Source: Branchiostoma floridae
Lineage: Eukaryota; Chordata; Leptocardii; Amphioxiformes; Branchiostomatidae
Direction: 5' to 3'
DNA length: 64,000 nt
Assembly: GCF_000003815.2 (NCBI RefSeq)
Contig: NC_049979.1
Coordinates: 13,145,560-13,209,559, forward strand
In this document: piece after piece, positions 2,024 through 54,850 of the stretch
Numbering within the stretch: the first letter of the stretch is position 1
How the letters are laid out: the number at the start of each line of letters is the position of its first letter
Translations under genes and position numbers: made by a program
Notes under the pieces: model-generated
The model's input: only the letters and a program-made list of their open reading frames with translations
Told to the model about the DNA's origin: nothing
The model's database searches: none

Positions 2024-2154
2024 TTAGGTTTGTTTGTTGATCTGGCAGATGTAGAGCCTGCTGTCTGTGCACGAGGCATCATCCCAGCGCTGCTGTGCTG
2101 CGGACCAGAGATGTACACAGTCCTGAGATGCCGTGCCTCCATCGTTGGGCTCCC
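2024..2154 (-). CDS. Gene A C-type lectin domain, exon 3 and stop
   Basis: 131-bp terminal exon, acceptor TTCCAG|. Carries the Ca2+/sugar motif GEPNDGG, then DCVHLW, WDDASC (WND in classic lectins) and YICQ, then stops at NKQT*. EPN predicts mannose-type specificity; WDD for WND makes Ca2+ binding probable rather than certain. Confidence 0.88.
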
Positions 2155-5100
2155 CTGGAATACAAAGACACGTCTGTTTAATTCAAGTGCATGTCGGAAA
2201 CTGTGTCGATAAAGTGTACGGCACCTATGTAAGACAGATCTAAAAATGGATTTAACAAAATATTGATTCAGAGAAGAATGCTTCTATACTGACCATATGT
2301 CCAGTAGGTGAAGCTGTCTAGTCTGGAACCATCAGCCCAGAGGAATTCCCCCTCCGTCAAGGTGTCATCTAGTCCAATCCACATATCCTTTCCACCATAG
2401 GTCTCAATGATGAAGTCCTTAATAGAACAGGATTACTCCACGTGAGGAATGGATCTCCATACTATACATTACTCCATATATGGGTATTGCAACTAGTGTT
2501 ATACTAGCACACACGAGCTTTCGCTAATAAAAACATAATGCTTAAACAGTCTAAACTTGATGTAGCTGGGTTACCTGAGTGTCCTTGTCCTTGACCATAG
2601 CGAGCAGTCCGCCATGCTGTCTGCAGGACTCACCAGCAGCCCTGTAGGTGGCCGTGGTGTTAGACACCAGGTAGCACGTGTCTCGGAACATGGTTGAACC
2701 AACCGGGCACTCTGTGATGGCTGACAAAAACTTTCGAAAATTACGAAAATGTTTCTAGGTTAACTCTAGTTAATATTATATATATAAAGAAGCAGAAGAG
2801 TCTCTTACCAACGCACTTGTCGTCTTGTTGGGTATAACCTGTCGGACATTGACACATCCAACCCTTTGATGTCGGCACACAGGCGTTTAGACCACAGTTG
2901 CAGTCTGAATATTCTAGAGAAACAATACGCAATGGATGTTGTTATTGGCTTAGATAACTTTGTTGACAACAAAGAGATTGTAAATGTTTTAATTGTTATT
3001 TCAATGTCATATTGCAGCACCATTTGCTTCATTGGACAGCCTTACATAAAGCCTTTTGCGGCAGGATTTCACAAACCTACCTTTACACTGGCTCGGGTCA
3101 CTTGTTCCCTCTGCCGATGTGGTGGTGCCTTCTGGACAGGACGTGCAGGAAGTCTGGGAGCTGTTGGTCTGGTACGTCCCCACCGGGCACGGCTCACAGG
3201 CTTTGGACATGGGGTTATGGAAGGACCCGGGAGGACAGGCAACTAGGGGAGAGACGGGGCAACTGATGAAGACGTTTGTAGTGCACTAAATAAACGCACG
3301 AGTAAACGGTTGCAACTGACAAGTAGATAGAGCACTTGTGGGACCCTTTTACAGTATTGTGCATCATTACAGTGGTAAAGAAAAAATAATGCAATTTGAA
3401 AAAGAAATGTTCAAATGGACTCACCACAGCCAGGGCCAGACTGTTGTTGAAAGAACCCGGTTGGGCATCCTACAAAGGGGTCCGAGATGGCAATGCCTTC
3501 GGTCACAACCGTGAGATTTTCGCCGTTGATTGGAATGACAAAGGTACCGATAACTGTCTTGATATCAAGGGCAGCTTTCCTGTATAGAGCAAAACATGTA
3601 CAGACACCCTAGCCTCTTTAACTTTCTACAGGTGATTGAACAGCGCATGAACAATGTAACATCTTTTTTTATATTCTTCATTTCTGCCGCGTTTTCACCC
3701 ATCCGAGTAAGACCTTTGAGTTGAGCTCACATAGATATACAAAATGTTTCCAGTCACGTATACTTGCTGCGTGGGTTCTACATCAAGTGCATTCCCGTGT
3801 CTTACCTTTCAATTGTACAAGACCAGGTGGCACACAATATCATTTCAATAAAAGTTATTAAAACAAATGTAGATCAAAGTCAATACCGAAACGCGTTTGG
3901 CCATTTACTTATGGTAAATTGTTTTCTTCTCTTTTTACTAATATACAGTGGAATCTAGTACTTTGCAACATCCATATCTGCAGGGAGGGCGTTTGTTTGT
4001 AGGGACAGCTGGCTGTTGTCTTCAATATAGAGTTGTATGGTGATGTCAATCACAGTGAGGGGGGAGATGTCTCTTCTCCTTCTGGTCCTCACTCCCTCTT
4101 CAACAGAGATCTCACTAATCTGCATGCACAGTCAAATACGTTTATTGTCATTTGGAAATTCCTTCATGNNNNNNNNNNNNNNNNNNNNNNNNNNNNNNNN
4201 NNNNNNNNNNNNNNNNNNNNNNNNNNNNNNNNNNNNNNNNNNNNNNNNNNNNNNNNNNNNNNNNNNNNGGCCTTAGCTTATCGGTTGGACCTTCCTTCAT
4301 GAATGATTTTACAACGCTGTATGTTGACCATATCACAATCTCTGGTAAATGTTGTTTGCGAAAACACTATTAAATGTGGACAGGTCCTTACCCTGCACGG
4401 CGGCAGACACAGCCCCTGTCTCCACAGTTCGCTCCTGATGTATTGCCTGATCTGGTGCAGGTTGGGTGAGGTTGTGCTGGTGATGGTCAGTCCTCCTATC
4501 TGTATCATACCGAATGGATTCCACGGGTCTGTTGGGGAACAAACGGAAATTATGCGCAGAAAGGAAAAGGATTTCAAAAACTCTCGTTTGTAAACACGTT
4601 TAACATTATATTAGTATGGCGTTTCGCATAATATTTTGGTTGTAGAAGCATATGCTTATAGCTGGCTGGTAATGAAATAGATTATATGCTACATTCCCCC
4701 AGTCTCTTGAGACCCATTAATCTACACTTCAGGCTGAAAGTGATCGGATAACTTGGTATAGAACAGGAAGTAATACGACACAACGTCGTATTTTAGAACT
4801 TATCTGACACCTTGACATGTTGAGACTGAGACGATCTTGAGAAGATTATCTACTCGCGTCATCCACAGCCAGCTGGTGTGGTCTCCACACTGGTACGTCA
4901 CCACACGGCCAAGTCCGTATGTCTTAAGAAGATAATAGTTAATGTCAAGAGCTGGAAATACACAAGTCGTCCTCTGTTAAACAATGTTTTTATGACTGAA
5001 ACGTCAACTCCAATATCATCCACAGGTAAAGAGAATTCTTACTTGTTTGTGATTCACAGTATGCAGACGGGACAACAAAATAGCGATGTATTGTCTGTTA

Positions 5101-8100
5101 CACGGGCTTTCCGTTATTGACGTAGAAGGAACGCAAACGGTGCATCTGTCTATAGCCTGTTATCTACTACAGATCATTGTCTTTACCATGAGGTCATACC
5201 TTTGGTGGATTGCAGTGCATGGTGCAGAATTCCTTATCTTCTCCGCCCGTCGCCGCCGAGTAACAAACCTTGTAGCCGTCATCGGGGTTTGCCAGAGCAT
5301 ATCGACTGCACAGGTCATCAGCTAAAAATCAGACAAATAGAAGAGGTAAATCAACGACTCAGACAAGCACCGTTAAAAATAGCTTACTGTATGTTGCCTG
5401 AAAATGTTGGTATCATAAGACTGACTGTCGATCATTTCGTTGACGTCACTGTACTTACGTTCACAGTAGGGCACATGTCCGAGCCAGGTCCCGTCTGCAC
5501 CGCAGACGACATCACCTCGGGAGACCAGCTGGAACCCGGGGTCACAGGAGAAGGTCGCGACATCGCTGTAGCACGACTCCGTGGTAGTGGACTGGCCGTT
5601 ACGGATTATACCAACCTCACTACAGCAAACCCCTGGTTTACAAAATAAGTTATACCATGATTAGTGCAAACACACTTGAAGTTAACATATCAAGACTTAA
5701 AACCAGATGACGATACTATAACACTTTTATCGGAGTGCAAAATGTTCTAGTTATTAGCCAGCCTAATATCATACAAAATGTTGCACTATTATCCTCTACG
5801 CACTCTCACAGACTGGCACTGTTGACCACGTGCCATCCTCTTGACATGTTGCAGCAGCTCTTCCTGCCAATTGATGGCCCACGTTGCAAGAGAAGCTTAC
5901 GATGTTTCCAAAGCAAAACCCTCCGTCTCCGGTCTGGGCAACACTTCCATTGGCAATGGTGAGCGTCTCATCACAGCAGATTTCTGGAAAAGGGGTGTAC
6001 GGTTGGTATTTAGCCAATGGTAAGATAACGTTAATTTCTTATAACTGCACTAAACAAATAGTATGTATATCTAAATGAGAAAAAATATAGAAGCGTTTAG
6101 TTTTAACTTGCAAATTTAAAACGTTATACAGCTAAATGGTACCTAGTACGCCAAAATGTGTTGATGGCCCTTTCAGTTCTATTTCCACCCAAGATAAGAG
6201 ACTCTTCAATGTGTTGATATTCAATTAGAAACTGAGATATGTGATAATGTATCTTGAGTGAGAACTTCTTATCCGTACCCTTGCAGGCCGGAGGGGTTTC
6301 ATCCCAAACTCCATCCTCCGTGCACGTCAGCTTACTGTTCCCAACTATGGAGTACCCAACGTCGCAGCTGACGGTGATGGTGTCGCTGAAGCACGTGCCT
6401 CCAGCAATGTCACCGTTTCCAACAGTAGGCAGGGTGCAACATCTCTCTTTGGGGAAAAGACACGATAATATCAGATAACGTCAGGAGCAAGTACCATTTA
6501 CAACACTGCATGCAAATTTATATCTTAACACTAGGATACAAACAGAAAGCAAGGCCATAGTTTCTCTGTTCAAGAAAAACACATGGTGTTGAAACAATTC
6601 AGTCTTCTGATTGCCAGAAACTTACTTTGACAAAATGGCTGCAGGCCGCTCCACGTCTGGTTAGCCTGGCAGGTGCGGTGCTGGTCACCGACCAGCTGAT
6701 AACCAGCTGAGCAGATGAAGGTGGTGTTATCCCCGTACAGGTGGCCACCAGCTACGGTGCCGTCTGGAATCACATCCAGAACTGGGCACGACTTCTCTGG
6801 AAAAGGTAACAACGGATCAAAGTGGTAACTAGATATGTCAACGTTTCCCTTACAATGAATCTAATCAAGTACAGTGTCTTAAATATATCATCTTACATCC
6901 TAAGATTTGGATGAAAACCGGGTACTTTTACTTATTACGTGTACTTGTCTTTAATTTGTTGGTGCACTTTGTACTTACTCTGACATGCTGGTGTAGTGCT
7001 ACTCCATGTCATGTCCGCTTGACAAACAGCAGTCTGGGACCCCACCAACTCATATCCCTCATCACAGGTAAAACTTACGGCGTCTTCATACAGGACGCCA
7101 CCTGTCACGTGACCGTTAGTAGTTGATGGAAGAGGTGAGCAACTGACACCTGTAAGTGCACGCCAAAAAGACGTAATTCGATTAGCTTAATCCGCGATCG
7201 GCACAAAAGAAGACACTTTAGTGTCAACATAACCTTTGGATAACTGGACATGGAATGCCTTCACAATACAGTGGCACTAGTTTTATCAGATCCACGACGT
7301 CCATGTAATGTAGTCATTGTAGTCCATGAACACCGGTGTGACAGCGATCTCGCCCCCCGTGATCTCGCCCCCCGGGGGCGAATTTCGCCCCCCCCCCAAA
7401 AAAACGGGTTTACATAACATTTTAGAAGTTGATTGGTATAAATCACAAAATGCAGTTTCAGAATGTTATAAGTACACGAGTCTGATACATAACTCCATCC
7501 ATAGTATTAATATTAACGTAATTACATGTTGATAAGACAGTTGAAGTTGTTTCGGACAAGGAGGGTTGGGTCCCCTGTATTCCCATTATTGCATATACTT
7601 GACTCTCGACATAAGATGTATTTCATTGTATTCACCTGTCTTTAAGCAACCTATATATCTCCAATATGAAGCCTCTGCCATGAATTGACCACAAAAGAAG
7701 TATGAAATGTCTTTATTAGTTATGTACATGAGGTATTCATTAGAATGTCGCACATTTTGTTATATGCACCTAGCCTATGGGTATCTTCACCTCCAATATG
7801 ACTGTTTTTCTATTATTTAGGAACTGGTGTTTTACCCGTGTTTCTTAGGACTGGAACTTTACCAGTGTTTTTGTAGCATTTAGCAACAGGTATATGGACC
7901 TGCGCGTAGATAGTGTTTAATGAGAAACTGTTATTCACTTGTTTTTGTGTTGGTGCTTTGGAAATATTTCCTGTACAAGATAGAAAATACTGTGACAAAT
8001 TGAAAACATTTAGCTGACGTATTCAGTGCCGTAGATGGTGTTGATGCATACGTTCGCGATAGCGTTGTCTTTTTATGCCACCTCAACTGCACAAAAAGTG

Positions 8101-11100
8101 TCTTTTTCATTTCAATGTCTTGTTTGCACCGAACCGTATAGTATCGACTTTCGAGGTACAACATCTTCAGGTTATAAGGTGCCATATAGGTACCAGGTAA
8201 CACACCATATACGTTACTCCCCAGGTGCAGTATAGTGCCAGGTAGCGCACCTAATATGTAGTAACCAGTTGCTCTTGAGAACCCCCCGAGAAGCAATGTT
8301 CTTAGGGGGGACGAGAACACTGCGGGGTATGGGGGGGGGGGGCGAAAACGCTAAAGGGGGGCGAAAACGCTAGTGATCTCGCCCCTCGGAGGGCGAGATC
8401 ACGGGGGGGGGGGGGGGCGAAATCCCTTTCCCACCGGCACTTACGTTCACAGCGGGGCTGTGTCCCACTCCATGTCTGGTCGGCCCTGCACAGCCTGGTC
8501 TGGTTCCCATGGAGTTGGAATCCAGGCAGACAGGAGAACGTGATGATGTCTCCATACAGATGTCCTCCTGTTGACACACCGTGGTCTAACACTGGCAGGA
8601 CCGGACATACCTTTCCTGGGTGGGAGTCATGCCCATTGCAGTTGTTAGATTAGATGTTCAAGCCGTAAACACCATGCGCTCGTAGCCGGTCATTACCTTT
8701 TATTTTGTTCTCATTTTTAATACGTAATGTTATAAACAAAAACACTAGTTTTATTCTGTAATCTATAAGTTACGACAATTAAGGCAATTTATGTGATTTC
8801 GGCCTTGAAACAAAATCTGTCTTACTTGTACAGGAGGGCTGTGTGCCGTTCCACTGTTGGTTGTGCTGACATGTAAGTGTAGAGCTTCCCGTGAGCTGGT
8901 ACCCAGCCGAGCAGGAGAAGGTGACGATGTCGCCGTACGAGCTGCCGCCCACTTTGTTCCCGTTCAGGGGCGCGTCCAGATCGGGACATGTCACCGCTAC
9001 AGAGGTAACGAGAAGTAAGACAGTATCGTCATGATACTGTCTTACTTCTCGTTCTCATTCATCTGCTATGCTTTTATTCAAAGCATAGCAGATGAATCTA
9101 CACACATTCTCTTGTGACATAGACACTACCTTGCTACAGAAATATTTAGGCCTTATAAGCAGTCGTTCTCACCTGTACAGGTGGGTTCGGTACCGCTCCA
9201 GGTCTGGTCGGCCTGACACGTCCTACTGCCGCTCACGCTCAGCTCGTACCCAGGGTCGCACGAGAAGGTAGTGACGTCACCATAGTGATTCCCGCCTGTC
9301 ATAATACCGTGATCAGGAAAATTCAGCTGCGGACATTCCTTTCCTGTGCGGAAATTAGAAGATTAATGTCAGGTCACCTTGTTGAACACTTCAAAGCATT
9401 CGCATGAAAAAATTAGTGTTTTTAACAACTTAACAGCAAAAATATTGCAGGATATATAAGAACTGTGACGTACTCTGACAGGAAGGCTGACTCCCGCTCC
9501 ACTGCTGGTCGGCCTGACAGATCCTCTCCGAGCTGCCCGCCAGCTGGAAGCCGTCGTCACAGCTGAAGGTGACCTTGTCCCCGTACAGAGACCCTCCTGT
9601 CATCTGTCCGTCAGACAGGGGCGGAAGGGATGGACACTGGACCTCTGCACGGACAGAGTCAGATTCTTGCAATCAAACTGCAAAACTTACCAATGGATTA
9701 AGCGTTATTATAGTCTTTTATCGGACAGCACTATTAATCGACAACCATCAGCTGGACTATTACAGCCCAGCGAATGCTATTTGATGAGTATACAGGGGTA
9801 ACAGTCAAATAAAATCTGCAACATCTTTCTCACATAATGTGACTTTCTTGTCCGCGTATGTTCTCAAGGTCCATTTTCTCCCAGTTACCATAGCTGTACA
9901 GGTAGGCCATGGCCTTGGTGCTGAAAGCACCATCGGATGTTGGTTAAAAATGGATATATTCTTCTAAAAGAGATGCCAATATACATGTCTCGTGTCGACG
10001 TCCACGAAACGGTGTACAACAGTTCTTACTCTGACAGGACGGTTGTGTCCCGCTCCACTGTTGGTTAGCCTGGCACAGCCGACTGGCGGACCCCACCAGC
10101 TCGTACCCAGGGTCACACGTGAAGTTTGCTGTGTCTGCGAACAGGACTCCTCCCGACACGCCGCCGTTATCCGGAGCTGACAGCTGCGGACAGCTTTTTC
10201 CTATTGGGAAATTATCAGTTTCTTATCAATGACAATCCAGCCAATATATTTACAAGTTACAGGTGAGCTTTGGGTTATTATAGTTTACGCATTGTACTAA
10301 TCTCACGCAAGATGACCTTGTCACCTTTACCATAAAAGCTCACAAGAACGGGACAAAACTAGTAGAACTGTGACCAGATCCATGTAATTTGAAGATGAAC
10401 ACAATGTTATGGTAATGGCGTCAACAGATTTATACAACGACATAAGATTTCACGCAGGTTGTAGGATTGATAATTTCCTCATCTCTTACTCTGACATGTC
10501 GGCTGTGTGCCCGACCACTGCTTGTTGTCCTGACAGGTGCGTGTGACGTCACCAACCAGACTGAACCCTTCATCACACGTCATCACGGCCGTGTCTCCAT
10601 ACTCGGTACCTCCCGTAACGTGACCGTTCAGCGGCGGGGAGAGATCAGGGCAGACTATTTCTGAAAATCAGAAACTTGGCGTTTATAGGTGAGCTAAACT
10701 GAAAAAAAAACCCATTTCCATTGTAAGTAAAGTTGTTACTGGTATACATTATAAGATATCATTCTAACATCGCCGTGACGTATAGACCTACAGTAAACTC
10801 CTTTAAGTTCTTGTGTATCTTTCCACTGGAAAAAGTTAGATTACGTACTTGTGCAAGATGGCGCTGCTGCAGACCACGTCTGGTCGGCCTGACACGTGAC
10901 GCTGTCAGAGCTGCCGTACAGCTCGTACCCAGTGTCGCACACGAAGCTCAGAGTGTCTCCGAAGAAAGTAGCGCCGGTGCTGGAGCCGTGTGCCGGTGCG
11001 GACAACGTGGGACATTGTACCTCTGGGCGTTTCGACGTGAAAGTCAGTAATGACACACACACACACACACACCACACACACGTACACCACGCACATACAC

Positions 11101-14100
11101 ATACAAACACGAATGACATTGCCTAGAATATAAACCAAATGATGATGATAATACAGTGTGTTGCTTACTTGTACATGTAGGCTGGGTGCCGCTCCAGGCC
11201 CTGTTAGCCTGGCACGTGCGTCTGGAACTGCCCCGCAGGCTGTAGCCGGAATGGCAGCCAAACGTCACTCTGTTACCGTAGTAGTAGCTGCCAGATATGG
11301 TGCCGTGAGATGGAGCACTGAGGGTGGGGCATCTTATTCCTGTTAGGGTTGTAGTTAATGACATGATTTCAGTTTCCACCGATCGGACAAGGTGAGTATA
11401 AGTATTAAATCAATACGTCTACAGCCGGTGGTGCCGATGGATGTGATGAACAATCGCCTTCTCATGTTCTTCATGTATTCACACACACAAAGCCAACGTT
11501 TACAAGAGACTTCGTATCTCCACGAGTTTATTTAGAGCTTTATGAAATAGATAGCATCCATTTACACAAAACACACGAGTAAGAGTATAATCAGTTAGCG
11601 AGGAGCATGACCACCATAAGGGCTAAAAGGTATCTTAATAAAAATCAAATCAAACTTTTAACGATGGGCAATCGTGCAACGAAGATTAACATGCGGTTAT
11701 TTTGTAACGAGCTAAGGGGACTTGACGATATTTATCGGAGGGGAGGGGCTGGTGCATAGGGGGGAGGGCCATTGAAAATTTTTTTGGAGCGGGGGGAGGG
11801 CCATCGAAATTTTTTTTGAGCCGGGGGGAGGGCCATTGAAAAAAAATTGCCTTAGGGGCCTTAAAAATACAAGCAAAATGTGCCCCTGAAATGCAGGAAA
11901 TGAAGTTTCAGATGGTCAAAATTTTAATTTTTCTCTGGACGTCCCCTGAGCGACGGCTTGCGCCTCCGGCGCTCACGACCGTCCGGCGCTCGTCGCCATC
12001 AAAAATCTTTTCCTCTGACAGAAATGTCATTACATTTAGCATAGTCTACCAGCAAAGTCTATCCCTCAAAGTGCAGAAAATCCTGTTTCGGAGGGTCCAA
12101 ATTTAAACATTTTTCTCCAGACCTACCTTGCGACGGCTGGTGCCTTGGGCGATCGAAATCGTGAAAATACGTTTGTTGCGTCGTCGCCCTCAATTAAATA
12201 TTAGCTAAAAACACTGTGAAATTCTACTACAAAGGCTATTAAACTTAGCTTAGTCTGCCAGCAAATTTTGTCCATCAAAAGTTAGGAAAGATCGTTTCAG
12301 ATAGTCAAGATTTCAAAATTTTCCGGGGGGACCCCCTAGGATTACGTCAACATAGCTCCCCATATTAAAGAAATTTGCTGCAGCCGCCTGTCGTGTGATT
12401 CCATGTTCGCACAAAGTTTACGAAGACTATAGAAACTAAAATTGGTATCAATATGAATCCTGCGTGCATCGGTTCTTTGTAAACGGAATGGTTCACGGAC
12501 GGCAACGGGATAAAACATTACGATGTTTACTTTCGTGACAGCGGGCTCTCTGCTGCATATGACGTAACGGGGGCTGTCGTAAGATGACCCCCCTTTTCAC
12601 GCGCTCGAACTCACGGCGCTCCATCACTAGTTGCCAGAGAGTGGTCAAGTTTTGATCAATGAATTTTTAACACATTCATCTGAAGAACATACCCGGATAA
12701 GGAATGCATTCATATGGTTCATGAACCCTTCACCCTCCTAGTTAGAAGTGGCAAACACTGAGGACGTTTTCGTGAATATAACTTCCGATTTTGTGATTAA
12801 TATATTTGTGTGTGCTTGTCTCCAGCGAGGAGGGCTAAATCTTTCACCATCCAGGTCGTGTTTTCATGGGAAATGGGTGAAATGCACTGAATGCGGCGGC
12901 CCGACCAACAAAATCATTACGAAAAACGACAACGCCAAAATCACAATAAAACTCTGCGTACGTATTGGGAAACATATTCGACATCACTCTGTGAAGTTTC
13001 ATTTTTATAGACGGTACGAATCATTTGTTAGAGTAACAAATCTTTTGGGCGTTCGCTCGTCTGCCACCTGCGGGGCCACACTCCCTAGGGAAAACAACGG
13101 CGGTGATGCTTATGTTGTTTTTTCTATGGCCGGTCTTCTTCTCAACAAACATCTGAAGACCAATATTTGTAGTGTTTTGTGAAGCTTTATTTCTTATGTG
13201 TATGACAGTTGTGTGGCTGTTTTGTACTGGTTGTATATTTATGGACACGAGCCACCAATACCTAGTAACAGGTGACCGCAGTGATTCGGCGCTACCAACA
13301 TTATTGTGAAAATTCTGTCTTCAAAAAAAAAATGGGAGTGAATACGTGTAAATATTTTTTTGATAGCAAAAAAATCTGTTTGTTTGGACTTGGTTTATTT
13401 ACCTTTCTAATCATCATAGTCAGTGGCAACAAACACGGCGTACTTATGCATAATATGATCGGCAAAAAATCTGGGCATCTTAGGACAGGGGTTATCTTAG
13501 TTAATCATACATATGATGGCATGAAAATTTTTCGGCAATTTTGTAGGTTGGCCGAAATAACTCCCGTTTTGGAATGATTACAACAGTATTGAAGCGGTTT
13601 TCTTAACGATATCGCTAAAATGTACCCAAGTCTCTTCCCAGTAGAACATTCATTTATTTTCTTTTGTGTAAATATCGTACATGTGTAACTTGTGGAAAAG
13701 ATCGCCGTGGAACCGCCTCTCCCCGCCCGCTTTTCTCTGCTGATGTGGACGCATAAAGTCCACCTTTACTTACCAATTTTTTCCACACAGAATGCGGGAA
13801 ATTGCGTTTTAGGAAGGTCAAAAATTTCCCGGGGAGCATGCCCCGGACCCCCTAGACGGGTTGGGCCTTCGGCCCTCCGATCCCTGGACGGCCTTTAATA
13901 GCCGTCGGTCTGGCGGAAACGCTCAGTTTCAAGTAATCAGTATCAGACAAGGTAAGTCTTATTAACATTGCAGTGCGAGTGTAACAACATCAAATATACA
14001 TATTTGTATACATGTCATTAAAATGAAAAGTCCGGGCTGTTGAAAAACTTTGGGAGAGATATGCCCCAGCAGGACTCCAACGTGCGTAATTTGTTGACGT

Positions 14101-22766: not shown

Positions 22767-22825
<59 letters not shown>

Positions 22826-28800: not shown

Positions 28801-31259
28801 GGTGGTAGAGAACTGCTGGTTGCTGTGATGTGACGATCCTCTGGAACTGAGACATAGTGCGGGCTAGGAACCTTTGTTTAACAGTTTGCCATGACAGAGA
28901 CGTGTGTAGCTGTTGTACCGGGGTTTTGAAATCACAGTGTAGAACTAGTCGTGCTGCTTTGTTTTACATGACTTGACGTAGCTCAATATTTTTCTGTGAG
29001 GTGGCGGACCAGACTGGTGAACAGTAATCAAGGTGCGATAGCGTTAAGAGCTTCTGTCAGGAGCTTACCGTGATAGTGAAGGGTCAAGGTATTTAGCACA
29101 TTTTTTGATCATTCCCATGGAGCAGGCCATTTTCTTTGCAGTCACTTTGGTATGTTTATCCCACGTAAGGCACTCATCCATATGACCGTACCTTCTTCAG
29201 ATTTTAAGATGCAAAACCCGGAAGTTCGGCTGCAGTACTGTCACAAGCCCAAGGGAGTCCGTCATGTCATTATTTCGAGGTTTCATCAAGACCTATATGC
29301 ATACTAAATATCAATCAATTCAGGCCTTCTCGAGTTATCGTTAAACGCTGCTGCCTAAGATATAACCTTAGTTTTTAATAGAGGTAATACAGTGTGTTGC
29401 TTACTTATACATGTAGGCTGGGTGCCGCTCCAGGCCCTGTTAGCCTGGCACGTGCGTCTGGAACTGCCCCGCAGGCTGTAGCCGGAATGGCAGCCAAACG
29501 TCACTCTGTTACCGTAGTAGTAGCTGCCAGATATGGTGCCGTGAGATGGAGCACTGAGGGTGGGGCATCTTATTCCTGGTAGGGTTGTAGTTAATGACAT
29601 GATTTCAGTTTCCACCGATCGGACAATATATACGCGCAATGTGAGTTTTGATAATCAATACGTCTACAGCCGGATGGTGCCGAAGAACCTAACACATCTA
29701 ACCCATCGGCTTCTCACGTTCCTCTTGGAGAAGTCAAAACTACCTTTTATTTACCTTTAATTAATGACACAAGTATCATCTATGATATTTTCGCATCAAT
29801 ATCCCAAGCATCAATATTATAATAATCTATCTAGACCTTCTTAATTTGTGCTGACCACAAAAGTCAGGAAACACAAATAGACTTGATCCGCTCCACTGTC
29901 CGAAAGAATGGAAGTTGTGATACTCGACCATCAAGGGTAACGTCACATTTCCAAACCGGGACCCGGTCGGGCCGCTGTCCTGGTTGAAAAGTATTATATA
30001 AACTAGAGTTCCACGAACACATACCTTTGCCAAATAAACCAGGTTTGTTATGTAGAATGATGTCTGTAGACAAATGCGTTACTCATTCATTTTCTTTATA
30101 ATTATATGCTTGGAGTTAGTTTATAAAATTTCGGCATTGATTATGCAAATTAGATCCCAAGTTACAATTAATTGATATCAAATTGTATCAAGCATTACTT
30201 AAGCTATCAGCATACAAAAAATAATGATGATCCATTGATCCATTCTTGACTTATTCTCTTTCAAAGTCTTTAAATACACCTCTTACTCTCTTCCCTCTTT
30301 CTCAATTACATATGTGACAACTTTTATGAAAGTACTGTAATGGATTTATGAACTTTTCCTAATCAATTATGCAAATTAGCTGTTAATTTGCATAATAAGT
30401 ATCACATTATATAAGTCTTCACTTAGGCTATCTACATGCCAAAAATCATGACGATCCGTCAACACGTTCATATTTTCTCATTAATTATGCAAATGAGATA
30501 ATCATTTGCATAATAAATATGTATTGACATTTCTCTCTTTCTCAGCTACATATGTGACAAGTTTTAAAGTCCTAATATGGAATGTAGTGAATTTATAAAA
30601 TATCCTCATTAGTTATGCAAATGAGCTGTTGATTTGCATAATCTGTATCTCATTATGTAGGTCTTCACTTACGCTACCTACATACCAAAAAACATGATGA
30701 TCTGTCAACATGTTCATATTTTCTCATTAATTATGCAAATGAGGTCATCATTTGCATAATTGATATCTATCGACATTTCTCTCCTTCCCAGCTACATATG
30801 TGGCAAGTTTGAAAGTCCTATCATGGAATGCAGTGGAGTTATAAATTTTCCTCATTAATTATGCAAATTAGATGCTGATTTGCATAATTAGTATACCATT
30901 ATGTAAGTCATCACTCATTCTATCTACATACCAAAAATCATGAAGATCCGTCAACACATTGTAGAGTTATTCTCGTCCAAAGTTTGAAAGGAAACCGGCG
31001 CCTGCCTGCCGCTAGGGGGCCCAAACTCCCAGCACTTACTCTCTGCCTCGAGAGCTATGTACCACTCAAAAATCATGACCACAGCATGTCCAGAACACGA
31101 GATATTAAAAATTGAGTTTCCGCTGCAGTACCTTAGCAAGCCGCTAGGGGGCCCATTATCGAACTTGACCTTCGTTTTCCCGACCCCTACCCACCTACCA
31201 AATATCATCAGGATCCATCCAAGGCTTCTCGAGTTATGCTGTTCACACACACACACACA

Positions 31260-31307
<48 letters not shown>

Positions 31308-34300
31308 CGCCCAAAACATAACCTTAGCCATTCTGGCAAAGGTAAACTCTGGCAAAGGTAAATACATATAGAATACAACACGGTGTATTCCGTATCAGCT
31401 GAGGTATCAGCCCGACCGCGGGTCGGATCGCACGACGGCCGAAGGCCGGAGGGTGATCCGACCCGCGGGAGGGCTGAGAAAACTGATGTTTATCGCATGC
31501 CAACCTGAGAAAACTGATGTTTATCGCAGAAAAAGAGCAAAAACAAGTCCTTGGTGCACATTGCGACAACTTTATTCGTCCATTCGAACAAAAGAACCGG
31601 GTAAAGGAACAGGCTTCGAACTGGTTAACGGAACAAACTTCGATCTCACTGAGTTCACCTGAGTTCAGTTAAATGAAAATTCATAATAACAGCTTGATTT
31701 GTTGCAACATTTGAAACATTTGAAACGCACGACAGTCATGAGTTTCTACTGAATTTGAATCTGCTGGCTAGCCAATGCGCTGGAGCTCGAGGAAGAGCCG
31801 CCGAAGTTCCAGGTTCCCCCTTAAATCGTTGCTCCGGCAAAAGTTATGTGGACAATGGGTTGCGTGGAATTTAGTAGTTTCAGTTCGATTTATTCGAATG
31901 GAGCCCGTGTGATAACCCCGGGCCGTACGGAAAGTTATCATCCGGTCCGGAACACCCGTATCGAACGTTTTCGCGTCACAGGTATGATATAAACCAAAGT
32001 ACACAAGACGCACGACTTCTAATGCCTTTTTGTTATCTGACGGAATAACATTCAAGTGCGGTGAAATGACCTTACTTTGTGGCGAAATTATTAGTATCTC
32101 GTTGCAAAACGACTTGCCTTGTGGCGAACTGACATTGTGGTGAAGCGACCTGTTACCTTGACGGTTAATACTCACTTGTTTGACAGCACGACCCAGTAAA
32201 GCCGGCGGCACAGGTACAGCCCGAGGACGCTCGCCGCCCACCATTTTGACACGGGTTCGGTCCGGTACAAGCACACCTGGAGGAGGCTGATCCCGAACAG
32301 TCAGCACCTCCACAGGACGCAGGGGGAGATTTCGTTCTGAACTCGGTAAGAAGGAGGAATATAAGACAGCTAACAATGGCGGCAAAAATGTTACTTAGCC
32401 TATTGATATCATGTATTAACTAGAGTTCCACGAACACATACCTTTGCCAAATAAACCAGGTTTGTTATGCAGAATGATGTCTGTAGACAAATGCGTTACT
32501 CATTTCATTTTCTTTATAATTATATGCTTGGAGTTGGTTTATAAAATTTCGGCATTGATTATGCAAATTAGATCCCAAGTTACAATTAATTGATACCAAA
32601 TTGTAGCAAGCATTACTTAAGCTATTAGCATACCAAAAATCATGATGATCCTTTGATCCATTCTTGACTTATTCTTTTTCAAAGTCTTTAAATACACCTC
32701 TTACTCTCTTCCCTCTTTCTCAGTTACATATGTGACAACTTTGATGAAAGTACTATAATGGAATACAGTGGATTTATGAACATTTCCTAATCAATTATGC
32801 AAATTAGCTGTTAATTTGCATAATAAGTATCACATTATATTACATGCCAAAAATCATGACGATCCGTCAACACGTTCATATTTTCTCATTAATTATGCAA
32901 ATGAGATCATCATTTGCATGGTAAATATGTATTGACATTTCTCTCTTTCTCAGCTACATATGTGACAAGTCCTATCATGGAATGTAGTGAATTTATAAAT
33001 ATCCTCATTAATTATGTAAATTAGCTGTTGATTAGCATAATTGGTATCTCATTATGTAGGTCTTCACTTACGCTACCTACATACCAAAAAGCATGATGAT
33101 CCGCCAACATGTTCATATTTTCTCATTAATTATGCAAATGAGGCCATCATTTGCATAATTGATATCTATCGACATTTCTCTCCTTATCAGCTACATATGG
33201 GACAGGTTTTAAAGTCCTGTCATGGAATGCAGTGGTTTTATAAATTTTCCTCATTAATTATGCAAATTAGATGTTGATTTGCATAATTTGTATACCATTA
33301 TGTAAGTCATCACTCATTCTATCTACATACCAAAAATCATGACGATCCGTCAACACGTTGTAGAGTTATTCTCGTCCAAAGTTTGAAAGGAAACCGGCGC
33401 CTGCAGTTCCAAAAAAGCCGCTAGGAGGCCCAAACTCACAGCACTTACTCTCTGCCTCGAGGGCTATCTACCACTCAAAAATCATGATCACAGCATGTCC
33501 AGAACAGGAGATATCAAAAATTGAGGTTCTGCTGCAGTACCTTAGCAAGCCGCTAGGGGGCCCATTATCGAACTTGACCTTCGTTTTCCCGACCCCTACC
33601 CACCTACCAAATATAATCGGGATACATCAAAGGCTTCTCGAGTTATGCTGTTCACACACACACACACACAGACACACACACACACACACACAGACTCACA
33701 AGCATGCAGGTCCCGCTGCAGTACCTTAGCAAGCCGCTAGGAGGCCCATTATCGAACTCGACCTTCGTCTTCCACACCCCTACCCACCCACCAAATATCA
33801 GCTGCATCCATCGAAGTCCTCTCGAGTTATGCTGCTCACAAACGGGGAGAACCACACCACCAAACCGAAAACATAACCTTAGCCATTCTGGCAAAGGTAA
33901 TAAGGAGAAGCCCCGAACCCGTAGTCAATGCCTTGACAAATTGGTGACCAGTTCGTAACTTTCCATAGCAAGTTTCAAATTTCCATAGAATGGGCACATA
34001 CCATAATTGTCCTTGTCACACCGCGAAGGCAACTTTTCAAAGCCACGTCTTGTCGCGCTGATCTTTTCAGTTGATCGGTGCATCAATAGTGACATGCGTT
34101 TTCTTATTATTACCTTTGCCAGAATGGCTAAGGTTATGTTTTGGGCTTGTGAGTCTGTCTGTGTGTCTGTGTGTTAACAGCATAACTCGAGAAGCCTTGG
34201 ATGTATCCCGATGATATTTGGTAGGTGGGTAGGGGTCGGGAAAACGAAGGTCAAGTTCGATAATTGGCCCCCTAGCGGCTTGCTAAGGTACTGCAGAAGA

Positions 34301-35772
34301 ACCTCAATTTTTGATATCTCGTGTTCTGGACATGTTGTGGTTGTGATTTTTGAGTGGTAGATAGGCAGAGAGTAAGTGCTGCAAGTTTGGCCCCCCTAGC
34401 GGCTTGTTTGGAACTGCAGTCACCGATTTCCTTTCAAACTTTGGACGAGAATAACTAGAGAACGTGTTGATGGATCGTCATGATTTTTGGTATGTAGATA
34501 GCCCAAGTAACAATGTACATAATGGAATACTAATTATGCAAATCAGCAACTAATTTGCATAATTAATGAGGAAAGTTTATAAATCCACTGCATTTCACAA
34601 TAGGACTTTCAAACTTGTCACATGTATAGATGAGAAAGAGAGAAGTAGCAATGCATGTTATGCAAATGACGGCCTCATTTGGATAATTAATGAGAAAATA
34701 TAAACGTGTTGACAGATCGTCATGATTTTTGGTATGTAGATAGCCAAAGAGAAGACTTACATGATGGAATTCTAATTATGCAAATCAACAGCTAATTTGC
34801 ATAATTAATGAGGAAAGTTTGTAAATCCACTGCATTCCTTTATAGGACTTTCAAACTTTCAAAATTTGTAGCCGAGAAAGAAAGAAATATTAATACATTA
34901 CTAATTATGCAGATGATGATCTCATTTGCATAATTAATGGGAAATATGAACGTGTTGACGGATCGTCATGATTTTTGGTATGTAGATAGCCTAAGTAAAA
35001 ACTTACATAATGAGATAATGATTAACAGCTAATTTGCATAATTAATTAGGGAAGTTGATAAATCCACTGCATTCAGTGATAGGACTTTCAAACTTGTCAC
35101 ATATGTAACTGAGAAAGATGGCAGAGAGTAAGAGGTGTATGTTTGTGTCCGCTAACGTCTTTCCTTGAACTGCAGGAGCCGGTTTAGTTTCCTACTTTGA
35201 AAGAGAATAAGTCAGGAAGGAAAGGATCATCAGGATTTTTGGTATGCTGATAACTTAAGTGAAGCTTGATACAATTTAATATCATTATGTAAATAGGGAT
35301 CTAATTTGTATAAGCAATGGCAAAATGTTATGAACCAACTCCAGGCATATGAAATAAAATGTAATGAGTAACACATTTATGTCTACAGACATCATTCTAC
35401 ATAACAAACCTGGTTTATTTGGCAAAGGTATGTGTTCGTGGAACTCTAGTATGACAATAGTTTCAATACAACAATAGTTCAATAGTTTTATTTCAGAAAA
35501 TCAGCCTTTGCAGCATGTACAAAACAAGCTGAATAACACTGACAGTAGCTTATTACTACTTGTGCATAGTTTCATCACGAAATGTAACGAACATTGCACC
35601 TGGTACACGGAGCAGTGCCCCCTCCGCACGAGGCGCTACACGTGCCTAGCGACCAGCCGCTCCAGCTACAGTTCACCACGGGACACCTGCGGCGGCGGCG
35701 GCGTCTCCAGCCCTCCACGTCCGTCAGTGACAGCAACAGGACCACGGTCAGGAGGAATAGGTGGAGGCGCAT
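2024..35772 (-). CDS. Gene A: secreted TSP1-EGF-17xCCP-SVEP1-like-GCC2/3-EGF-CTLD protein (29 coding exons, spliced)
   Basis: Whole-gene span; the coding exons are listed separately. Joined exons give 4,596 nt (1,531 residues) with consistent phases at every junction. Approximate residue order: signal peptide 1-21, Arg7 run, TSP1 about 30-85, EGF-like 86-111, CCP1-17 at 112-1084, SVEP1/polydom-like cysteine region 1085-1312, GCC2/GCC3 repeat 1313-1366, EGF-like 1367-1398, C-type lectin domain 1399-1531. CCP modules are extracellular protein/glycan-binding modules of complement regulators and selectins; TSP1 and the polybasic run suggest glycosaminoglycan binding; the CTLD has EPN followed by WDD, so Ca2+-dependent mannose-type sugar binding is plausible. 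The product is predicted secreted, with no membrane segment. CCP order is colinear with the DNA. The full architecture is not one I know as a named family. Paralogue of gene B, which starts at 38790. The weakest junction is the 4811 donor (GTGTCA). A 5' UTR exon must lie upstream. Confidence 0.85.
2294..2417 (-). CDS. Gene A C-type lectin domain, exon 2 of 3
   Basis: 124-bp exon, phase 0 in and 1 out, acceptor ATTAAG|, donor |GTCAGTAT. Contains the CTLD signature core (WIGLDDTLTEGEFLWADGS), equivalent to the WIGL and FxWxDG motifs of the family. Confidence 0.87.
2575..2720 (-). CDS. Gene A C-type lectin domain, exon 1 of 3
   Basis: 146-bp exon, phase 1 in and 0 out, acceptor TGTCAG|, donor |GTAACCC. 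Begins with the N-terminal Cys pair of a long-form CTLD (CPVGSTMFRDTCYLV) and includes the helix motif CRQHGGLLAMV. Confidence 0.85.
2809..2904 (-). CDS. Gene A C-terminal EGF-like exon
   Basis: 96-bp phase 1-1 exon, acceptor TTCAG|, donor |GTAAGAG. Reads DCNCGLNACVPTSKGWMCQC and closes in GYTQQDDKC: six Cys with EGF-like order. Links the GCC2/GCC3 repeat to the lectin domain. Confidence 0.78.
3081..3242 (-). CDS. Gene A GCC2/GCC3 (ephrin-receptor-like) repeat exon
   Basis: 162-bp phase 1-1 exon, acceptor CCTAG|, donor |GTAGGTTT. Pattern: CPPGSF, then CEPCPVGTYQ, then CTSCPEGTTT and a closing SQC, the Tyr/Cys/Gly spacing of GCC2_GCC3 repeats in SCUBE, SVEP1 and ephrin receptors. Confidence 0.85.
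3425..3579 (-). CDS. Gene A SVEP1-like region, exon 5
   Basis: 155-bp exon, phase 2 in and 1 out, acceptor TACAG|, donor |GTGAGTCC. Reads AALDIKTVIGTFVIPINGEN and ends CPTGFFQQQSGPGC, leading directly into the GCC2/GCC3 repeat, as in SVEP1 and SCUBE proteins. Confidence 0.75.
3962..4119 (-). CDS. Gene A SVEP1-like region, exon 4
   Basis: 158-bp exon, phase 0 in and 2 out, acceptor ATGCAG|, donor |GTACTAG. Starts ISEISVEEGVRTRRRRD, followed by a beta-like stretch (VIDITIQLYIEDNSQLS). It contains no Cys. RTRRRRD is a possible furin-type cleavage site. Confidence 0.7.
4169..4268. other. Assembly gap (100 N)
   Basis: One hundred N in an intron of gene A; no coding exon appears lost, since phases join across it. 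Confidence 0.99.
4392..4528 (-). CDS. Gene A SVEP1-like region, exon 3
   Basis: 137-bp exon, phase 1 in and 0 out, acceptor CAACAG|, donor |GTAAGGAC. Encodes PWNPFGMIQIGGLTIT and, at its end, a helical, charged RSELWRQGLCLPPCR. The following intron contains the first N gap. Confidence 0.72.
4811..4922 (-). CDS. Gene A SVEP1-like region, exon 2
   Basis: 112-bp exon, phase 0 in and 1 out. Reads TYGLGRVVTYQCGDHTSWLW and ends in a Cys-Gln before the junction. The acceptor (CTTAAG|) is clear; the donor |GTGTCAG is non-ideal and was chosen because it gives the phase the next exon needs. The boundary may be off by some bases. Confidence 0.6.
5200..5321 (-). CDS. Gene A SVEP1-like region, exon 1
   Basis: 122-bp exon, phase 1 in and 0 out. 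Encodes a Cys-rich segment starting DDLCSRYALANPDDGYKVCY and ending EFCTMHCNPPK. Acceptor TTTTAG|, donor |GTATGACC. The position directly after CCP modules and before GCC2/GCC3 matches the arrangement in SVEP1/polydom; the domain itself has no name I can assign. Confidence 0.75.
5459..5632 (-). CDS. Gene A CCP17 exon
   Basis: 174-bp CCP exon, phase 1-1, acceptor ACCAG|, donor |GTAAGTAC. Begins VCCSEVGIIRNGQSTTTESC and ends WLGHVPYC. It is the last CCP before the SVEP1-like region. Confidence 0.86.
5804..5983 (-). CDS. Gene A CCP16 exon
   Basis: 180-bp CCP exon, phase 1-1, acceptor TCCAG|, donor |GTGCGTAG. Begins ICCDETLTIANGSVAQTG and ends WSTVPVC. Shares the CC start with CCP15 and CCP17, so these three form a subgroup. 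Confidence 0.85.
6279..6446 (-). CDS. Gene A CCP15 exon
   Basis: 168-bp CCP exon, phase 1-1. Begins RCCTLPTVGNGDIAGGTC and ends WDETPPAC, with the extra Cys pair typical of this gene's last CCPs (CC at the start, C in GGTC). Donor |GTACGG; acceptor CAAAG|, with an alternative CAAAGAG two bases further in. Confidence 0.83.
6626..6796 (-). CDS. Gene A CCP14 exon
   Basis: 171-bp CCP exon, phase 1-1, acceptor TCCAG| and donor |GTAAGTTT. Begins KSCPVLDVIPDGTVAGG and ends WSGLQPFC. Confidence 0.88.
6979..7149 (-). CDS. Gene A CCP13 exon
   Basis: 171-bp CCP exon, phase 1-1, acceptor TACAG| and donor |GTAAGTAC. Begins VSCSPLPSTTNGHVTGG and ends WSSTTPAC. Confidence 0.88.
7340..8430. repeat. Insertion bounded by G/C-rich inverted ends
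   Basis: Both ends carry GTGATCTCGCCC and long G or C runs with GGCGAAA in opposite orientation, enclosing about 0.9 kb of AT-rich sequence without a gene. It lies in the intron between CCP12 and CCP13. Class unknown. Confidence 0.45.
8445..8615 (-). CDS. Gene A CCP12 exon
   Basis: 171-bp CCP exon, phase 1-1, acceptor CCCAG| and donor |GTAAGTGC. Begins KVCPVLPVLDHGVSTGG and ends WSGTQPRC. A G/C-rich inverted tract begins 20-30 bp past its donor. Confidence 0.87.
8826..8996 (-). CDS. Gene A CCP11 exon
   Basis: 171-bp CCP exon, phase 1-1, acceptor TGTAG| and donor |GTAAGAC. Begins VTCPDLDAPLNGNKVGG and ends WNGTQPSC. Confidence 0.88.
9007..9053. repeat. Perfect hairpin, 21-bp arms
   Basis: Arms 9007-9027 and 9033-9053 are exact reverse complements around a 5-base loop, 10 bp from the CCP11 acceptor. 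Confidence 0.9.
9057..9097. repeat. Perfect hairpin, 18-bp arms
   Basis: Arms 9057-9074 and 9080-9097, loop of 5 bases, 3 bp after the previous hairpin but of unrelated sequence. Confidence 0.9.
9173..9343 (-). CDS. Gene A CCP10 exon
   Basis: 171-bp CCP exon, phase 1-1, acceptor CACAG| and donor |GTGAGAAC. Begins KECPQLNFPDHGIMTGG and ends WSGTEPTC. The intron separating it from CCP11 holds two perfect hairpins (9007-9097). Confidence 0.88.
9474..9644 (-). CDS. Gene A CCP9 exon
   Basis: 171-bp CCP exon, phase 1-1, acceptor TGCAG| and donor |GTACGTCA. Begins VQCPSLPPLSDGQMTGG, contains FSCDDGFQLAGSS and ends WSGSQPSC. Confidence 0.88.
10030..10200 (-). CDS. Gene A CCP8 exon
   Basis: 171-bp CCP exon, phase 1-1, acceptor AATAG| and donor |GTAAGAA. 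Begins KSCPQLSAPDNGGVSGG and ends WSGTQPSC. Confidence 0.88.
10490..10660 (-). CDS. Gene A CCP7 exon
   Basis: 171-bp CCP exon, phase 1-1, acceptor TTTCAG| and donor |GTAAGAG. Begins IVCPDLSPPLNGHVTGG and ends WSGTQPTC. Confidence 0.88.
10849..11022 (-). CDS. Gene A CCP6 exon
   Basis: 174-bp CCP exon, phase 1-1, acceptor CCCAG| and donor |GTACGT. Begins VQCPTLSAPAHG, contains FVCDTGYELYGSSD and ends WSAAAPSC. A (GT)n tract on the coding strand lies just before the acceptor. Confidence 0.87.
11169..11339 (-). CDS. Gene A CCP5 exon (copy A of the quadruplicated exon)
   Basis: 171-bp CCP exon, phase 1-1, acceptor AACAG| and donor |GTAAGC. Begins IRCPTLSAPSHGT and ends WSGTQPTC. Differs from copies B and D by one base each over 171 bp. 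Confidence 0.88.
11716..14352. mobile_element. PIF/Harbinger-like non-autonomous element, copy 1
   Basis: Inverted ends GGGACTTGACGATATTTA / GGGACTTAACGATATTTA, each followed by a G-rich block and GGCTGGTGCA, flanked by TAA on both sides (11713-11715, 14353-14355). Subterminal GGGGGGAGGGCCATTGAAAA repeats. A 3-bp TAA duplication is typical of PIF/Harbinger. No transposase was recognised; the longest ORF (12748-13182, 144 codons) has no motif. It lies in the CCP4-CCP5 intron of gene A. Confidence 0.65.
14596..14766 (-). CDS. Gene A CCP4 exon
   Basis: 171-bp CCP exon, phase 1-1, acceptor TTTCAG| and donor |GTAGGG. Begins KLCQRLSSPSHGQVTGGHAY and ends WSGAQPTC. Clearly diverged from the near-identical copies on either side, so it is not part of the recent amplification. 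Confidence 0.87.
14930..14982 (-). pseudogene. Remnant of a CCP exon
   Basis: The minus strand reads RTCQANQGWTGSQRTC, the last third of a CCP module, beside a poly-C tract and without the first two thirds or a proper donor. A dead exon copy in the intron between CCP3 and CCP4. Confidence 0.6.
14983..16312. other. Intron of gene A, mostly unique AT-rich sequence
   Basis: A repeat-family 3' end finishes near 15214 (TTCTAG|TTA); after that I see no gene, repeat or motif that I can support. Confidence 0.4.
16376..16546 (-). CDS. Gene A CCP3 exon (copy B of the quadruplicated exon)
   Basis: 171-bp CCP exon, phase 1-1. Differs from copy A by one base (Arg for Thr before the last Cys, giving WSGTQPRC). 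The duplicated flank on its acceptor side is interrupted 18 bp away by a 3.3-kb insertion (16565-19834) and resumes at 19835. Confidence 0.88.
17276..18219. other. Unassigned sequence inside the 3.3-kb insertion
   Basis: No ORF with recognisable content and no terminal repeats found. Moderately AT-rich. Confidence 0.35.
18220..18720 (+). mobile_element. LINE reverse-transcriptase fragment
   Basis: Reads VVPVPKVTRPKGLEDFRCIS LTSYLGKVYE in sense: the start of the palm region of non-LTR reverse transcriptases. Truncated on both sides, with frame breaks. Confidence 0.7.
18830..19090 (+). repeat. Tandem repeat, about 3 units of 88 bp
   Basis: Units share GTTTTTACAGCGCTTTTCTA, a GTGTCATT...AATGACAC-like core and ATTTTTGCTATTACTGTG-type sequence, with several substitutions between units. 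Confidence 0.75.
19982..21305 (+). mobile_element. Complete TTA/CTAG-family element, 1.32 kb
   Basis: 5' end CCTTTGCC...GGCTAAGG (hairpin), two GGCCCCCTAGCGGC-CTGCAG modules, three 240-bp AT-rich units, 3' end GGCAAAGGTATGTG...CTCTAG. TTA on both sides; the empty site occurs in the duplicate segment at 23225-23227. Confidence 0.8.
21309..22590. other. Gene A intron, no recognised feature
   Basis: AT-rich sequence without CCP-like exon, ORF of recognisable content or clear repeat. Confidence 0.4.
22765..22820. repeat. (CA)n microsatellite
   Basis: About 27 CA dinucleotides, 90 bp from the donor of CCP2. Other CA/GT tracts lie near 11050, 16313, 31244, 33652, 53980 and 56560, mostly inside the interspersed elements. 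Confidence 0.95.
22907..23077 (-). CDS. Gene A CCP2 exon (copy C of the quadruplicated exon)
   Basis: 171-bp CCP exon, phase 1-1, acceptor AACAG| and donor |GTAAGC. Same protein as copy B; relative to the other copies it carries one silent Arg-codon change (CGA for CGC). The flanking intron sequence is duplicated too. A (CA)n tract lies about 90 bp beyond the donor. Confidence 0.88.
23400..24060 (-). repeat. Partial TTA/CTAG-family element, AT-rich units in reverse orientation
   Basis: Three 240-bp-type units with octamer pairs and the box complementary to GTTGACGGATCGTCATGATT, without recognisable family 3' end. Confidence 0.65.
24170..24778 (+). mobile_element. 5'-truncated LINE: C-terminal ORF and 3' tail
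   Basis: An intact 155-codon ORF (24194-24661) with a CCHC-type knuckle (ICQYCNLNKIEDECHFIVEC) as found at the C-terminal end of several LINE clades, then a 3' UTR and an ATTC-repeat tail. The same 3' end occurs in reverse at 61493-61740. Confidence 0.75.
24779..26095. repeat. Patchwork of TTA/CTAG-family modules
   Basis: Contains CTGCAG/GGGGGCCC modules, one octamer unit (about 24970-25110) and a 5' hairpin end at 25801 (TTA|CCTTCGCCAAGAAGG). Long ORFs across it (for example 25023-25688) are repeat readthrough. Confidence 0.6.
26098..26790 (+). repeat. Element with 5' hairpin and four 145-bp units
   Basis: Starts TTA|CCTGCATGTATGCAGG, then four diverged units, each with a GAACGG...ATTTTTGGTACGTG...TTTTGGGCCTCCTGGTG...TGAACTTGAC order. 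Shares its plan with the TTA/CTAG family, but the units are strongly diverged. Confidence 0.6.
26800..28110. other. Unassigned region with candidate short coding segments
   Basis: A 28-codon open stretch on the plus strand (27017-27100: start MVELELKQKKMQF, with CIECGHKRK) ends exactly at a good donor (AAG|GTATGT). On the minus strand 27218-27457 is an 79-codon ORF (KLLAMEALKSSEAVVVKA...). Neither is recognised. Confidence 0.25.
28640..29190 (-). mobile_element. LINE C-terminal fragment (minus)
   Basis: Minus-strand reading contains CSPVWSATSQKNIELRQVM, NKAARLVLHCDF and HSYKTRHASNHTYRLPKPRT, the conserved end of many LINE ORF2 proteins. One in-frame stop is visible; 5' truncated. Confidence 0.75.
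29405..29575 (-). CDS. Gene A CCP1 exon (copy D of the quadruplicated exon)
   Basis: Single 171-bp CCP exon, phase 1-1, flanked by acceptor CCAG| and donor |GTAAGC. Begins IRCPTLSAPSHGT and ends WSGTQPTC, with four Cys and the Trp of the fold. Nearly identical at DNA level to the exons at 22907, 16376 and 11169. The codon after the last Cys is Ile instead of Thr. Confidence 0.88.
30003..31342 (-). mobile_element. Complete TTA/CTAG-family element, 1.34 kb, reverse
   Basis: Family 3' end at 30003 (CTAGAGTTCC), AT-rich units, GGGGGCCC-CTGCAG modules, a (CA)n tract and the 5' end GGCAAAGG at 31342; 16 bp of the end is repeated up to 31358. Confidence 0.75.
31405..31530. repeat. GC-rich palindrome followed by a 24-bp direct repeat
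   Basis: GACCGCGGGTCGGATC and GATCCGACCCGCGGG form arms around a centre with its own GGCCGAAGGCC; then CTGAGAAAACTGATGTTTAT occurs twice, 31 bp apart. Confidence 0.7.
31531..32175. other. Gene A intron, no recognised feature
   Basis: Ordinary intron sequence adjacent to exon 2. A 205-codon minus ORF running through it and the exon is out of frame with the exon's domain content. Confidence 0.4.
32176..32336 (-). CDS. Gene A exon 2: rest of TSP1 plus EGF-like module
   Basis: Reads on from exon 1 as RTKSPPASCGGADCSG, completing the TSP1 cysteines, then an EGF-like half (PNPCQNGG...CTCAAGFTGSCC). Acceptor GTTCAG| and donor |GTGAGTATT flank it; phases 2 and 1. It is homologous to gene B exon 2 at 43911, which ends in GFVGSCCE in the same place. 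A longer ORF in another frame over this stretch has no domain content. Confidence 0.85.
32420..33897 (-). mobile_element. Complete TTA/CTAG-family element, 1.48 kb, reverse
   Basis: TAA on both sides (32417-32419, 33898-33900). Same order as at 30003, with one extra GGCCC-CTGCAG module after a (CA)n tract (33652-33693). Confidence 0.78.
34113..35449 (+). mobile_element. Complete TTA/CTAG-family element, 1.34 kb
   Basis: 5' CCTTTGCC...GGCTAAGG preceded by TTA; 3' GGCAAAGG...GAACTCTAG followed by TAT, so here the flanks do not match exactly. It lies 150 bp from exon 1 of gene A. Confidence 0.75.
35600..35772 (-). CDS. Gene A exon 1: signal peptide, Arg7, start of TSP1
   Basis: The ATG follows a splice acceptor directly (TCTATTCAAG|ATG), so the 5' UTR is split as in gene B. 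It encodes a hydrophobic leader (MRLHLFLLTVVLLLSLTD...), the run GWRRRRRRRC, and a TSP1 start with the diagnostic Trp and Cys spacing (CSWSGWSLGTCSASCGGG). The donor is GTGCAATG, leaving phase 2, which joins in frame to exon 2. Confidence 0.85.
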
Positions 35773-38408: not shown

Positions 38409-38417
38409 TATATAAAG
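38409..38417 (+). promoter_or_regulatory. TATA box of gene B
   Basis: TATATAAAG, placed so that transcription would start near 38440. It lies 120 bp before a strong donor (GGG|GTAAGTTCG), which pairs with the acceptor in front of the ATG. Confidence 0.6.

Positions 38418-38789: not shown

Positions 38790-54850
<16,061 letters not shown>

Follow-up and report, generated by a model that had tools for sequence, protein, structure and literature searches.

The window analysed here, 64,000 nucleotides of the Branchiostoma floridae genome (C1:13145560-13209559), raises the question of whether a long series of CCP modules and a C-type lectin domain belong to one gene and, if they do, what kind of protein that gene encodes; searches for related genes covered 513 Mb in 431 contigs. 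Gene A is modelled on the minus strand, from 35772 to 2024, as 29 exons with AG/GT at every border, phases that chain throughout and no internal stops. A preliminary description had set the features within this span without naming the strand, and they do lie there; its single frame across all 29 exons also stands, although its length of 1,531 codons has to be corrected, the spliced frame of 4,656 nt comprising 1,551 codons and the stop. Exon 1 has a weak donor (GTGCAA), and exons 23-29 are joined across an assembly gap because 100 N lie in intron 22. The features of gene A, in window coordinates and in the order of transcription, are as follows.

35600..35772, minus strand: exon 1, hydrophobic start (putative signal peptide), poly-Arg stretch and first half of TSP1; exon model, kept in four paralogues
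32176..32336, minus strand: exon 2, second half of TSP1 and EGF; exon model, TSP1 by profile
29405..29575, minus strand: exon 3, CCP1, one of four near-identical copies; exon model, the copies differing at 1-3 of 171 nt
22907..23077, minus strand: exon 4, CCP2, near-identical copy; exon model, copy comparison
16376..16546, minus strand: exon 5, CCP3, near-identical copy; exon model, copy comparison
14924..15034, minus strand: remnant of a CCP within intron 5, interrupted by a stop and most similar to CCP3 of gene C; tblastn, CCP comparison
14596..14766, minus strand: exon 6, CCP4; exon model
11169..11339, minus strand: exon 7, CCP5, near-identical copy; exon model, copy comparison
6626..11022, minus strand: exons 8-16, CCP6 to CCP14; exon model and Pfam, one-to-one with gene C
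5459..6446, minus strand: exons 17-19, CCP15-17, six-cysteine type; same place in all four paralogues
3425..5321, minus strand: exons 20-24, segment X of about 245 aa, with a basic cluster in exon 23; exon model, no Pfam match
4169..4268, no strand: 100-N assembly gap in intron 22; sequence
3081..3242, minus strand: exon 25, GCC2/3 (Ephrin_rec_like); exon model, Pfam
2809..2913, minus strand: exon 26, EGF; exon model, Pfam
2024..2720, minus strand: exons 27-29, C-type lectin with EPN motif, stop codon at 2024-2026; exon model, Pfam

The encoded protein has, in order, a hydrophobic start, TSP1, EGF, 17 CCPs, segment X, GCC2/3, EGF and a C-type lectin domain. The module order proposed earlier was recovered by Pfam on the spliced model (17 Sushi stretches, 5.9e-184; Ephrin_rec_like, that is GCC2/3, 6.7e-10; cEGF, 2.2e-12; Lectin_C, 2e-19, a domain present in 4/4 paralogues) and, for TSP1, by a profile of the four paralogues; what had been overlooked in an otherwise correct architecture is the conserved module of about 245 aa between the CCPs and GCC2/3. 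TSP1 is absent from single-sequence Pfam scans of gene A and of all four paralogues (0/4), and the profile finds it through thrombospondin-1 (1.3e-8) and properdin (4e-5). Lectin is the last domain, the model stopping 5 aa past the Lectin_C match. The hydrophobic start (hydropathy 3.28 across 9 residues of exon 1) and the lack of a membrane end point to secretion, and the poly-Arg stretch adjoining TSP1 suggests binding to sulfated glycans.

Gene A had been described as if it stood alone. Instead, tblastn of its exons across 154 kb finds four genes in the arrangement D- C+ | A- B+, with further loci elsewhere in the genome; the counterpart of A is C and that of B is D, in inverted order, so that the four form a palindrome of two head-to-head pairs centred at about C1:13144.3-13147.6 kb. 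The other three members lie as follows.

C1:13127145-13113360, minus strand: gene D; tblastn, model
C1:13129898-13144327, plus strand: gene C; tblastn, model
C1:13184349-13229535, plus strand: gene B; tblastn, model
38790..54850 of the window, plus strand: gene B exons 1-11 (start/TSP1, TSP1/EGF and 9 CCPs, one of them gap-cut at 53880); the rest lies outside the window

All three have open models: gene C with 31 exons and 1,670 aa; gene D with 28 exons and 1,565 aa, leaving out three extra EGF exons and a CCP cut by a 294-N gap, where another CCP was probably lost; and gene B with 30 exons and 1,697 aa without, or 33 exons and 1,803 aa with, three extra EGF exons, one of its CCPs being gap-cut and one donor choice possibly shifting the length by two residues. 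The neck of B and D differs from that of A and C because B and D carry these three further EGF exons between the EGF and the lectin (one in D is gap-cut); in gene B they are class 1-1 exons and the frame stays open. N gaps occur in A, B and D and none in C. Among the splice sites, one donor of gene C is GC, and exon 2 has a poor donor in both B and D. Exons 27/28, with which the lectin domain begins, are fused in B and D and separate in A, C and locus E, described below. Tail identity to A is 86% for C, 41% for D and 42% for B. The dN/dS ratio is 0.21 between A and C (26 exon pairs, 1,357 codons) and 0.27 between B and D (28 exon pairs, 1,533 codons, the three extra EGFs left out): the paralogues are under purifying selection, and four open paralogues with such ratios place the gene structure beyond chance.

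Amphioxus is very polymorphic, and this, together with the N gaps in A, B and D, lends some credit to the idea that the palindrome is an assembly artefact in which two haplotypes were set in inverted tandem. We regard this as improbable, since A-C dS per exon is as high as 1.0-1.28, four-fold divergence is uneven among exons, and A and C are unlike in CCP content. Taking the palindrome as real, dS per exon between A and C runs unevenly from 0.025 to 1.28, and when four-fold sites were permuted, a spread as wide as the real one arose in 1 of 5,000 runs for A-C and in 0 of 5,000 for B-D. Such uneven divergence in both pairs fits patchy gene conversion, with uneven mutation or constraint as possible alternatives. 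Comparison of 20 short A/C introns gave 78-92% agreement at matched positions, three of them doing no better than shuffles.

Several other elements were recorded in and between these genes. A 78-bp block (window 38352-38429), about 360 bp upstream of the gene B start codon and 84.8% identical, is the sole blastn match between the A-B and D-C intergenic regions; it is possibly a promoter or 5' exon of B/D. Dispersed repeats of 0.7-1.3 kb (window 1-722, 20017-21308, 30001-31291, 32414-33700 and 34103-35450), with an internal period of about 240 bp and about 85-94% identity, enlarge the introns of gene A. Inside gene B lie a tandem array (window 49844-50812) with a unit of about 20 bp in higher-order repeats of about 200 bp and, in an 18-kb intron, a reverse transcriptase fragment (window 61037-61390, minus strand; PF00078, 5e-6, below the cut-off). 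A weak match to a single C2H2 zinc finger (8.7e-5) lies in a 249-aa frame (window 51031-51777, minus strand); when eight other frames of the window were searched with Pfam, this finger and the reverse transcriptase fragment were the sole results, and Rfam at gathering thresholds gave 0 matches.

Segment X is, as judged from sequence, a conserved module of unknown kind. It has no Pfam match in gene A; the tails of the other three paralogues returned, besides GCC2/3, EGF and lectin, low-scoring names such as poxvirus A33R (0.074), in a Pfam listing that gives family names without positions. Low-scoring repeats of long proteins aside, matches in a PDB search begin in the last 16 or so residues of the segment, and among the best 60 of 233 matches in a second PDB search the best stretches fall in the EGF-lectin part. 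The basic cluster in exon 23 reads RTRRRR in A and C, which fits the furin pattern R-X-R-R, and RLRKR in B and D, which is a dibasic site only. If segment X were cut there, the lectin half would be either released or held by disulfides.

Segment X also traces the family through the genome. All 34 candidates of a search with it were scored and 32 matched at E up to 1, defining 12 loci (A-L); a match at C9:23126219 (E 0.92, one stop) was left out. At nine of the 12 (A-I), segment X, GCC2/3, EGF and lectin follow in order, without extra EGFs in A, C and E and with two or three more before the lectin in B, D, F, G, H and I, the order at F-I being that of matches on one strand and not of spliced models. 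Locus E (C17:690-712 kb, minus strand) has the second half of TSP1 with EGF, 19 CCPs, segment X, GCC2/3, EGF and lectin, and is free of gaps between segment X and the lectin; some of its CCPs are gap-cut, one more weak match with a stop was left uncounted, and 18 of the 19 stand in gene C order (best match a gene C CCP or its A counterpart). Between its EGF and lectin there is no extra EGF, and exon 1 was looked for there and not found. Locus F (C17:12467-12484 kb) has 19 CCPs, segment X, GCC2/3, EGF, three more EGFs and lectin, its N terminus having likewise been sought and not found. Loci G and H (C1:21138 and 21251 kb) have segment X, GCC2/3, EGF, at least two more EGFs and lectin, and locus I (C17:779-793 kb) the same modules with three more EGFs. 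Locus J (C7) has segment X followed by GCC2/3 and EGF as far as it was read, and locus K (C12:1182 kb) part of segment X, a gap and a weak lectin-like match. At locus L (C12:1646 kb; C12:1645600-1653599), segment X is present twice in part, ahead of an F5/8-type galactose-binding domain (4.1e-6) that may be a further lectin-like cap for this module. A GCC2/3-EGF search, in which 150 of 210 candidates were scored, added at least one probable locus, M (C1:21193 kb). An intronless 2,423-aa frame at C15:11345250-11352519, considered as a processed copy, has by eye CCPs only and was rejected. On this pattern of sequence matches, gene A is a member of a multigene family in the B. floridae genome, and the family provides a conserved segment to which Pfam has no match.

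Claims of new architectures in lancelets have before now been put down to gene-prediction errors. In one B. floridae model, ESTs are reported to separate the Lectin_C and fn2 domains, exposing a false fusion, and such errors can reportedly converge between lancelet species (PMC4967905; PMC6071037). Because Lectin_C-bearing lancelet models have thus proved false before, the joint between the CCPs and the lectin was tested against the alternative of a CCP gene followed by a separate same-strand GCC2/3-EGF-lectin gene, the two being copied together, with which colinear duplication by itself is compatible. Between the final CCP and the lectin, the introns of gene A measure 137, 226, 282, 272, 382, 182, 167, 88, 157 and 139 bp, and the ten of gene C 114-307 bp; in introns this short (88-382 bp in A, 114-307 bp in C) there is hardly space for one gene to end and for the promoter and signal exon of another. 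The tail introns were also scanned for an ATG whose hydrophobic stretch could feed the next exon; signal-peptide candidates occur in none of those of A (0/10), C (0/10) and B (0/9) and in three of nine in D, one of which is an EGF exon; the other two (2/9) speak for a separate gene. The scan is a weak test because other introns also give candidates (A 6/18, C 2/20, B 3/20, D 2/18), and since these come to 13 of 76 the short intron lengths outweigh its count. Two genes would moreover have to be reconciled with phases that fit throughout the models of A-D and with an order that recurs, on C1 and C17, at nine of the 12 loci bearing segment X, extra EGF exons being inserted at six. A false fusion is therefore very improbable. 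The single gene proposed at the outset is borne out by its chained phases, its short tail introns and the complete order of gene C in 14.4 kb without a gap, and we hold with high confidence that gene A is one gene; the genome data, in which one paralogue is free of gaps and short in its introns and the order is repeated at many loci, argue strongly for a real architecture.

These close paralogues also allow the gain and loss of CCP and EGF exons to be followed. Each of the final three CCPs has an additional pair of cysteines, and the trio sits at the same position in all four genes; across the A/C and B/D groups, the first and third CCPs of the trio are nearest each other, and for the middle one this is less clear. 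Elsewhere in the rod, gene A has no counterparts of CCP1, 3, 5, 6 and 7 of gene C, and has four copies of the C CCP2 exon that are 1-3 of 171 sites apart from each other and lie in matching blocks of 209-430 bp. Because CCP and EGF exons have been gained and lost between genes, the rod and neck change by whole exons while the ends stay constant.

The lectin domain finds its best alignments among CRDs of the mannose-receptor type, one Endo180 domain scoring 1.7e-11. The mannose-type ligand set for Ca2+ and sugar is EPN, E, N and D. The EPN motif is present in A, C and D and reads EPS in B, and in all four genes Gln and Asp take the place of the Endo180 Glu and Asn; sugar binding may for these reasons be weak or lost, and Ca2+-dependent sugar binding is likely, not assured. 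In the mechanism that we propose, the N-terminal poly-Arg, TSP1 and EGF would dock on glycosaminoglycan or matrix, the CCP series would serve as a spacer rod whose length varies by exon gain and loss, and the constant C-terminal core (six-cysteine CCP trio, segment X, GCC2/3 and EGF) would carry the C-type lectin, which may bind glycans, perhaps with Ca2+, as part of a tethered or soluble recognition or adhesion molecule. That the product of gene A is an extracellular glycan-binding protein is a fairly confident prediction; the fuller reading, of one gene encoding one secreted mosaic protein that belongs to a family and acts as a matrix-docked glycan-binding lectin on a CCP rod, is probable to a more modest degree. 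Immune recognition as its main use is a possibility that we put somewhat short of even, and about as likely as a structural use. The latter, a matrix or cell-adhesion protein whose lectin binds endogenous glycans while the rod sets the distance, is a tentative reading that draws on the presence of TSP1, EGF, GCC2/3 and poly-Arg, matrix-type modules by their usual function, and on dN/dS well below 1; the number of gene copies, the turnover of exons and the varying rod length might instead be reminiscent of recognition families. More speculative, and on balance unlikely as a whole, is an undescribed family of chordate tethered lectins with a constant docking end and a lectin core on the new domain X (possibly convertase-cut), an exon-remodelled CCP rod and EGF neck, and gene conversion across the palindrome, forming an innate recognition repertoire.

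Among known proteins, SVEP1 (polydom) is secreted, has an N-terminal VWA as well as HYR and pentraxin modules, and like gene A combines CCPs with a GCC2/3 and EGF segment. Gene A differs in its TSP1 N terminus and lectin C terminus, and VWA, HYR and pentraxin were not found in a Pfam scan of its whole protein at E up to 1. The 'SVEP1-like core' of the preliminary description is not supported as kinship, since GCC2/3 and EGF are common to many proteins and those three modules are missing from the scan; the best PDB match of the GCC2/3-EGF part is thyroglobulin. Selectins also unite a C-type lectin, EGF and CCPs, with the lectin N-terminal, the EGF and CCPs next and a transmembrane C terminus, whereas gene A has the reverse order, a C-terminal lectin and no membrane end. 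The mannose receptor family (MRC1, Endo180, PLA2R, LY75) has the closest solved lectin domains, yet gene A has a single CRD with two usual site residues changed, and no other domain in common with it was found. The TSP1 of properdin is similar to the gene A family profile, and complement C6/C7 share TSP1, EGF and CCP modules with gene A (PMC11312191); gene A differs from both in its rod and lectin, and the Pfam scan of its protein found no MACPF. The same source describes an oyster protein, Clec-CCP, that joins a C-type lectin and CCP and is said to activate a MASP-like/C3 lectin pathway; the amphioxus genes differ from it in having 17-19 CCPs, TSP1, GCC2/3 and segment X (PMC11312191). The judgement that the combination belongs to no nameable family agrees with the literature at the level of titles and the starts of abstracts, where no paper has the gene A order, and databases may well carry an annotation of the gene, such as SVEP1-like. 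What is new is the order, together with segment X and the genome-wide family; the individual modules and the theme of CCPs with a lectin are known.
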